This document shows positions 5,583 to 23,463 of a stretch of 64,000 nt of DNA, in pieces. The DNA is taken from the NCBI GenBank assembly GCA_024639905.1, contig JAHEGE010000003.1, positions 62,001 through 126,000 of the forward strand, read 5' to 3'. The notes under the pieces are model-generated. The model had not been told where the DNA came from, searched no databases, and worked only from the letters and a program-made list of their open reading frames with translations. Origin of the DNA: Gammaproteobacteria bacterium. GTDB taxonomy: Bacteria; Pseudomonadota; Gammaproteobacteria; Pseudomonadales; Pseudohongiellaceae. The translations under genes and the position numbers were made by a program. Position 1 is the stretch's first letter. The number at the start of each line of letters is the position of its first letter.

Positions 5583-5618
5583 GCGACGACCACAGAAGCG
5601 GGGATTTCCCGGCAACAA

Positions 5619-5683
5619 GCTGTATATTTAACGATAAAAAAGCGTATATTTATCGATAAATAGCTGTATATTTTCTGATAAAG
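5619..5683 (+). repeat. Three tandem 21-22-bp AT-rich iterons upstream of the ATPase
   Basis: Three head-to-tail copies of a unit close to AGCTGTATATTTANCGATAA begin at 5619, 5641 and 5662. The middle copy contains a perfect 16-bp palindrome TATTTATCGATAAATA (5647-5662). The spacing of two helical turns places all copies on one DNA face. They lie about 80 bases before the ATPase start and are far more AT-rich than the surroundings, so they are a likely operator or regulatory array for that gene. Confidence 0.7.
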
Positions 5684-21935: not shown

Positions 21936-22649
21936 TTAGGTTGCCCAGCCGCCTGCTAGGGGGATGAGCTGACCGACCATGTGGGTGCAGTGTTCGTTGG
22001 CGAGATAGGCGGCGAGTTCGGCGGTCTCCTCCGGGCTGCCGATGCGGTTGGTGGGTACATTGCGTTTTACGTGTTCGAGAAACTTCGGTTCGTCCAGTAG
22101 GTGATCTGGGTAATAAGTCTCGTTATTCACGTAATTTTGTGCGATTGCGTTGGCCTGAATGCCGCTGCGTGCAAGCTCTAACCCCACTGCCTTGATGAAC
22201 GCGTTCTGTGCCCCTCGCGCGGCGCAGTATGCCGCGTTATTGGGAATGCCTCGGAGCGGCGCGGCGCTCGTCACGGCGATGATTTTTCCACTCTGACGTT
22301 CGAGCATCTGAGGCGTGACTGCGCGCACGAGATGCATGAGCGGATCTACCAGGGAGGCGAATAGCGCGTGCCAGTCGTCATCGGTGATTGCCTGCACGGG
22401 GCCTGTCATCGGTGGCTTAGCAAGATTAATAACAAGGATGTCGATACGGCCGGCGTCGCTCACCACAGTATCAACTTCTTCGCGTGAGGTGAGTAGTGCG
22501 TCGCTCTCGATGACGGTAATACCTGAGGCGCGGAACTTAGAGGCAATGGCGCGGCCCATGTAGCGATCGACACAGGTAACCAGCGCGCGCCGCTCTGCAG
22601 CGGCATCTGAGCCTGGCTTCTTGAGTGCGCGCTCTGTTTTAAGTTCCAT
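21936..22649 (-). CDS. Candidate halohydrin dehalogenase (SDR-fold, Ser-Tyr-Arg triad)
   Basis: 237 residues with a short-chain dehydrogenase fold but without the NAD-binding TGxxxGxG motif and without the catalytic YxxxK. It has instead T25-x4-Y30-x-G32 (TCVDRYMG) and S128-x12-Y141-x3-R145 (S followed by AAPLRGIPNNAA, then YCAAR). Both are the defining motifs of halohydrin dehalogenases, which form epoxides from vicinal haloalcohols and open epoxides with nucleophiles. Similarity to HheC continues at the C-terminus (HVKRNVPTNRIGSPEETAEL, then GQLIPLAGGW). The start is ATG 22649. It lies 49 bases downstream of the candidate selenoprotein on the same strand. Alternative: an SDR with divergent function. 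Activity is inferred, not shown. Confidence 0.82.
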   Translation of the reverse strand: MELKTERALKKPGSDAAAERRALVTCVDRYMGRAIASKFRASGITVIESDALLTSREEVDTVVSDAGRIDILVINLAKPPMTGPVQAITDDDWHALFASLVDPLMHLVRAVTPQMLERQSGKIIAVTSAAPLRGIPNNAAYCAARGAQNAFIKAVGLELARSGIQANAIAQNYVNNETYYPDHLLDEPKFLEHVKRNVPTNRIGSPEETAELAAYLANEHCTHMVGQLIPLAGGWAT

Positions 22650-22698: not shown

Positions 22699-23310
22699 TT
22701 AGTCTGATTGCGCGAGCAGGTGCTGCACAAATTTTTCTAGCGTCTCATAGGGCTGGCAGCCAACCACGACGAGGTCGCTTGCATAGAATGTTGGTACGCC
22801 AGTGACGCCTGTGGCGCGCGAACGCTCCCAGTCTGCGTCGATTGCCGCAGCGAAGGCGCGAGTATCCAGCACTTCGCGAGCGGCCGCTGTGTCGAGGCCA
22901 ATCGAGCCGGCAATCGTGACAAGCGCATCGATATCGCTGATGTTAATGGCATCCACGAAATAGGCGCGATACAGCGCATCATGAATGGCGTCGCCACCGG
23001 GTTGAGTATCTGCCCACGCGCCGAGTTCCTGAGCGAGTCGGCTGTTATAGGTATGCGTGCGCTCGCCATAGGGCAGTCCCGCTTCCGCCATTAAGCTCTT
23101 AAGCCGCTGGCGCACGGGCTCGATATCACGCCCTGCGAACATTTCCGCAAGTGAACGGCCCTCGATCGGGGTATCTGGGTGCAGAGGGAAGTGGATCCAC
23201 CGCGTCTTAACCGGGTAGTTGGCTTTGAGTTTTTCAATACTCACGGTACTGAGGTAACACCACGGTCAAACGTAGTCGGTAAAAATATCTAGCGTGATTT
23301 CTTTGGTCAA
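22699..23310 (-). CDS. DsbA/FrnE-like thiol oxidoreductase with in-frame TGA at the catalytic Cys (candidate selenoprotein, UxxC)
   Basis: The open part (from GTG 23244) lacks the first strand and active site of the DsbA-like 2-hydroxychromene isomerase/FrnE family. Reading upstream in the same frame to TTG 23310 restores them: MTKEITLDIFTDYV, then TGA (23266-23268), then PWCYLSTVSIEKLK. The TGA sits exactly where the first Cys of the CPWC active site belongs. Upstream, AAAGG lies 8 bases before the TTG. With the TGA read as selenocysteine the protein is 203 residues, normal for the family, and keeps the cis-Pro loop GVTGVPTFYA. A stem-loop follows the TGA. The alternatives are a TGC/TGT-to-TGA mutation or a base error; the exact position makes selenocysteine attractive. 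No selA/B/C/D gene is in the window. Confidence 0.7.
23238..23256 (-). promoter_or_regulatory. Candidate bacterial SECIS stem-loop
   Basis: In the RNA directly after the UGA, UACCUCA pairs with UGAGUA (six base pairs with one bulged C) and closes a six-base loop GUACCG. The first loop G lies 17 bases after the UGA, within the 16-37 range known for bacterial SECIS elements, and the loop begins with GU. The stem is short and the fold was judged by eye only. Confidence 0.4.
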
Positions 23311-23463
23311 AATGGCTGCCTTTATGGTTGAGCTGGATGAGTCCGGATAATAGCGAGCCTGGCCTTGGCTGTCTCTAGCCGGCAGTTTGCGTGTCACGGG
23401 ACTTGCGGTAGACTCGGGTCATTCTCGTCGGCAAAATAACAGTAAAATAACGGAGATATCACT

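Follow-up and report, generated by a model that had tools for sequence, protein, structure and literature searches.

Does the TGA codon that interrupts a FrnE/DsbA-like reading frame of a marine gammaproteobacterium encode selenocysteine (Sec), or does it mark an error, a decaying gene or an untranslated leader? The question is raised by a window of 64,000 nucleotides (the whole stretch of DNA analysed, to which positions given without a locus or contig label refer), in which the minus-strand frame 23310..22699 reads LTKEITLDIFTDYV-TGA-PWCYLST and continues to its stop. The answer reached here is that the frame is almost certainly a real bacterial selenoprotein gene, with the UGA at codon 15 read as Sec. 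The features of the locus are collected in Table 1.

Table 1. Position of the gene, its functional elements and its downstream neighbour in the window
Feature	Position	Strand	Details and basis
Very probable selenoprotein gene, FrnE/DsbA-like	22699..23310	minus	TTG 23310-23308, stop 22701-22699, 203 residues; Pfam DSBA and PDB FrnE matches
TGA, read as Sec15, position 1 of UPWC redox motif	23266..23268	minus	Frame reading and homologue column
Cys18 codon TGT, residue 2 of UxxC motif	23257..23259	minus	
AAAGG, plausible ribosome-binding site	23319..23323	minus	8 nt before TTG at 23310, read from sequence
SECIS-like hairpin, 7-bp stem, 5-nt loop CGUGA (23245-23241)	23234..23252	minus	Pairing kept in TGA 54-mers, covariation
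Cys185 codon TGC, third Cys accompanying Sec	22756..22758	minus	57/60 distinct Sec rows, 0/32 Cys rows
Short-chain dehydrogenase, downstream neighbour	21936..22649	minus	Pfam adh_short_C2; 49 nt after stop

Reading frame and fold

The 203-codon frame holds a single internal stop, the TGA at 23268-23266, which stands where CPWC has its first Cys. Once it is read as Sec, the active-site region becomes DIFTDYV-U-PWCYLST. An earlier note on this DNA had claimed that a TGA takes the place of the first Cys in the CPWC of a FrnE/DsbA-like frame, that the sequence is intact on both sides, that a TTG start with AAAGG fits, and that automatic gene calling truncates the gene. These points were all borne out, as the frame is highly conserved and free of any other stop and AAAGG is suitably placed before the TTG. 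Moreover, in most relatives with TGA, an ATG precedes it by 13 or 14 codons, so that the TTG at -14 is plausible as a start. A scan of the window yielded 27 rows with an in-frame TGA next to a Cys motif, among which 23268 alone was judged by eye to lie in a conserved frame, the homologue search being for 23268 only. Elsewhere in the window, positions 5617-5682 contain a short tandem repeat that is rich in AT, with a period of 22 and about 3 copies.

Standard ORF finding places the start at GTG 23244 and yields a product of 181 aa that has lost the active site. Such a product could be the real protein, with the upstream part untranslated, and the output of standard ORF finding speaks for it. 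However, it would begin only after the first strand and CPWC, both of which are translated in Cys homologues, and the upstream residues are conserved, with D12, Y13, the motif, Y19, and L20 invariant in 37 rows. Additionally, GTG 23244 sits in the loop of the hairpin described below and appears as GTA, GTC or GTT in 9 of 58 TGA sequences. A start at this GTG is very improbable, and reading the TGA as Sec corrects a truncated standard annotation from which the active site had been removed.

The full-length protein matches Pfam DSBA at 1.6e-31 (110 bits against a cut-off of 25.6), and phmmer against the PDB aligns it with FrnE of Deinococcus radiodurans at 1.4e-23, Sec being placed opposite the first Cys of CPWC. 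An AlphaFold2 model based on the 37-row alignment has a mean pLDDT of 95.1, and the five best PDB matches of this model in Foldseek are all D. radiodurans FrnE, with a TM score of 0.92 by query length. In the model and its matches, the DsbA/FrnE fold is seen with the CxxC motif opening the first helix.

Conservation of the TGA and the selenocysteine machinery

Relatives of the gene were collected by a contig scan, from which the best 80 of 170 were kept; these 80 loci stand for fewer than 80 independent genomes, as L071 and L082 come from one genome and L050 and L055 stand under one assembly name. Across the best 80, the Sec15 column carries TGA in 50 loci, TGC in 19 and TGT in 11, and TAA or TAG in none (0/80). 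Thus, the homologue column that the earlier note had pointed to contains codons for U or C only, and the in-frame TGA falls where 30 homologues have Cys. The retention of TGA by 50 of these 80 loci, with no TAA or TAG, is more than chance. In the same genus, a full-length gene with one TGA was found in 26 of 36 other genomes, several of which are the same assemblies as among the 80 loci; the remaining ten comprise one decayed copy (in G010) and nine genomes with no match. The decayed copy (L131, G010:C185:20000-22500) has a frameshift and several stops, and its genome still has SelB.

These counts bear on two simpler explanations. A sequencing or assembly error, with TGC or TGT as the true codon and an ordinary Cys enzyme as the product, would require a single-base difference only, and the genome is a draft of 26 contigs. 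However, TGA occurs at the same codon in separate assemblies, namely in the 50 loci of the best 80 and in the 26 genus genomes (with the shared assemblies just mentioned), and an error is hardly credible. Decay through a nonsense mutation in the active site does occur in this group, as the G010 copy and possibly the nine genomes with no match illustrate. Nevertheless, the only stop in the window's frame is the TGA, the frame being otherwise open, and relatives at 46–84% identity keep it with both flanks conserved, which leaves a pseudogene next to no probability. The error, pseudogene, and downstream-start readings were all rejected, based on the conserved TGA, the open frame, and the conserved upstream residues.

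The genome that carries the presumed selenoprotein gene comprises 2,668,146 bases (completeness 100, contamination 0.04). A search for selA, selB, selC, and selD detected all four. The tRNA-Sec gene (selC) scores 63.3 bits, over the Rfam cut-off, with a model to which ordinary tRNAs match below the cut-off in 14 of 14 control genomes and over it in 5; ARAGORN independently called a tRNA-SeC(tca). SelA (548 bits), SelB (352 bits), and SelD (275 bits) all exceed their curated cut-offs, and contig C9 carries selC, selB, and selA within some 25 kb. At locus L018 (1381-3648, minus strand), SelD is found within a frame of 755 codons, whose N-terminal part resembles, by eye, a pyridine-nucleotide disulfide oxidoreductase/NADH dehydrogenase. 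This is presumably a SelD fusion of a known type.

The association with the machinery was examined in 48 genomes, which account for 49 of the 80 loci, namely 19 TGA loci out of 50 and every one of the 30 Cys loci. At E<=1e-60, SelB was present in 19/19 TGA genomes vs 4/29 Cys genomes. Within the genus, it was detected at the same threshold in 21 of 26 TGA genomes and not in the other five (G001, G005, G008, G016, and G019), which are 65–89% complete. Furthermore, SelB is kept in 9 of the 10 genus genomes that have no intact gene, so the FrnE/DsbA-like gene is not the sole reason to keep the Sec trait. A class-wide search of 369 genomes, 57 of them matching at E<=1e-12, returned TGA in the window's own genome only; hence the distant gammaproteobacterial FrnE homologues there are Cys forms.

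Two relatives depart from the common motif. L106 (1501-2103) is a TGA form with U-L-W-C instead of U-P-W-C, which was missed by the motif filter and stands outside the hairpin and Cys185 counts. L130 (1179-1808; G039:C20:3678-4307), from a genome with SelB, is a FrnE homologue at a greater distance (32% identity); its sole internal TGA is at the Trp of CPWC (CP-TGA-C) and not at a Cys, in one genome. No orthologue of this gene was matched in the one other genome of its genus. The CP-TGA-C may be a mutation, an error or a CPUC motif.

In a tree of 92 rows, drawn with a midpoint root and with two distant rows on very long branches, two changes of the Sec/Cys label are needed, and the tree does not say which state came first. 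The nearest named relative in this tree is OM182 bacterium BACL3, grouped with two MAGs (fork 100/95), and the Sec form is conserved across this OM182/Pseudohongiella-like clade of marine Gammaproteobacteria. Two alphaproteobacterial-type Sec forms, L063 (3001-3612) and L065 (2790-3380), lie inside an otherwise Cys clade and have a compensatory hairpin change and no third Cys; they represent either a separate gain or the survival of an older Sec state.

Gene order was compared at a minimum of 50% identity, with some loci cut by contig ends. The downstream dehydrogenase accompanies 36/50 TGA loci and 0/30 Cys loci. A divergent upstream TPR protein (36/50) and a CoA-transferase (35/50) also stand beside the TGA loci, and neither of them is found beside the 30 Cys loci. 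Overall, 42/50 TGA loci and 0/30 Cys loci have one or more of the four neighbours tested. The dehydrogenase is a conserved neighbour that is not needed for the selenoprotein claim.

A hairpin within the coding sequence

The earlier note had described a stem-loop 17 bases after the TGA with a loop starting on GU. A conserved hairpin is indeed present and has the geometry of a bacterial SECIS, but the TGA lies 20 nt ahead of the loop, in which GU is at positions 2-3 and not at the start. The stem runs from U13-A31 to C19-G25, starting 13 nt after the TGA. All 7 stem pairs are kept in 55 of 55 distinct TGA 54-mers (one of them containing an N, though not in the stem), and GU is invariant throughout. 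The distinct Cys 54-mers, an impure control as the amino acids there differ, form all 7 pairs in 0 of 29 cases (range 2–5 pairs). A compensatory change from U17-A27 to C17-G27 occurs in L063 and L065. Additionally, loop positions 1 and 4 form a cross-loop pair, being C/G in 46, U/A in 6, G/C in 2, and U/U in 1 of the 55.

Covariation was assessed by five measures against 500 shuffles in 20 rows, hand-picked to include variants. In these picked rows, 99.4% of cells pair, and the covariation score of 0.172 vs 0.081 shuffled was reached by 0 of 500 shuffles. Two of the five measures, the count of double-change pairs (66/500) and further pair types (359/500), were not above the shuffles. Synonymous choice is also frozen under the hairpin in TGA loci. 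For instance, Leu at codon 5 is CTC in 57/58, with a synonymous entropy of 0.13 bits vs 1.95 bits in the Cys group, and codon 9 (Ser AGT, 56/56) and codon 10 (Ile ATT, 55/55) do not vary. Codons beyond the hairpin do vary in the TGA loci, such as Leu 13 (2.15 bits) and Pro 27.

The bSECIS model, as given in the accessible part of PMC13188914, specifies a stem of 4–16 bp, a loop of 3–9 nt with G in its first two positions, 16–37 nt from UGA to loop, and an energy at or below -7.5 kcal/mol. The window's hairpin falls within this geometry (7 bp, 5 nt, CG, 20 nt); its energy is -4.8 kcal/mol alone and -5.8 evaluated in 60 nt, compared with the limit of -7.5, and its pair probabilities are 0.42–0.52. 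The best fold of the window's 49 nt (-7.8) is a structure other than the hairpin, with a z of -0.53 vs shuffles. On average, the sequence that follows the codon folds no more stably in TGA loci (-8.2) than in Cys loci (-10.0), and an Rfam search of the window gave no match at the gathering threshold. With its in-loop covariation, the conserved SECIS-like hairpin offers natural data well suited to the study of recognition by SelB.

The computational checks suggested in the earlier note (Sec machinery, homologue column, hairpin) all favoured its selenoprotein reading. Based on these features, a mechanism of Sec insertion may be proposed. SelA would make Sec-tRNA-Sec using selenophosphate from SelD, and SelB would deliver it to UGA codon 15 under the direction of the hairpin located 13–31 nt downstream. 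The product, 203 residues long and with no obvious signal peptide, would be a thiol/selenol-disulfide oxidoreductase that belongs to the FrnE branch of the DsbA fold. Sec15 would serve as the attacking nucleophile and Cys18 as the resolving residue (U15-P-W-C18); this redox chemistry and the substrates on which it would act are presumptive.

A third cysteine and comparison with known systems

Among 92 distinct proteins, the Cys185 column holds Cys in 57 of 60 Sec rows, the exceptions being L058 (Ser) and L063 and L065 (Ala); the 32 Cys rows have Ala in 31, Gly in 1, and Cys in none. L106, outside the 92 rows, also carries Cys here. By analogy with the thioredoxin fold, the loop after the last strand, which holds Cys185, should presumably adjoin the active site. 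Cys185 is almost confined to Sec forms and may act there as a second partner for resolution or exchange. A more specific and rather doubtful proposal is that the Sec forms go beyond a plain exchange of Cys for Sec and have a three-residue redox centre (U15-x-x-C18 plus Cys185), in which Cys185 might rescue over-oxidised Sec as a second resolving residue or set up a relay; proteins with Cys in place of Sec would then have lost Cys185 or never acquired it. As Sec and Cys185 occur mostly in the same part of the tree, Cys185 may be one inherited change and not a repeated coupling. The Sec-linked third Cys offers a testable point on why Sec is retained in a FrnE/DsbA-like enzyme.

COG2761 is taken here to be FrnE. 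The earlier note was right that DsbA-like selenoproteins are known from marine metagenomes. In the accessible text of the sources, a DsbA-like protein (COG2761, UxxC, nine sequences) was among the new Sargasso Sea selenoprotein families of 2005 (PMC1088965), DsbA 1 (pfam01323, UxxC, 63 sequences) showed a higher abundance in the marine samples of the Global Ocean Sampling (PMC2398784), and the family was carried on in PMC1794560, PMC9312934, and PMC13188914. The accessible portions of these five accounts do not use the name FrnE, and those of PMC1088965 and PMC13188914 do not mention a third Cys. A limited literature search found no published treatment of the gene of the OM182/Pseudohongiella-like clade. 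The window protein combines UPWC with PF01323, the published family being defined by UxxC in a PF01323/COG2761 protein; as this family is already in print (PMC1088965, PMC2398784), the gene adds a well-supported member to a known selenoprotein family.

Compared by description, as far as the accessible text goes, the 'DsbA-like protein form 1' (PMC1088965, PMC13188914) shares PF01323, UxxC, and an origin in marine bacteria with the window protein, and its SECIS has a guanosine in a small apical loop, as in the window. Likewise by description, 'DsbA 1' of the Global Ocean Sampling (PMC2398784, accessible part) shares pfam01323, UxxC, and marine abundance. The Cys homologues of Rhodospirillales/SAR116 and others (30/80 loci) are 44–62% identical over nearly the full length, but have TGC or TGT for TGA, no SECIS-like hairpin, and Ala or Gly for Cys185. 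FrnE of Deinococcus radiodurans (5cnw, 5coh) is alike in fold and sequence and has CPWC at the same place, whereas it has Cys instead of Sec and Ala at the position of Cys185; with 260 aa it extends past the aligned part, and the window protein ends at residue 203.
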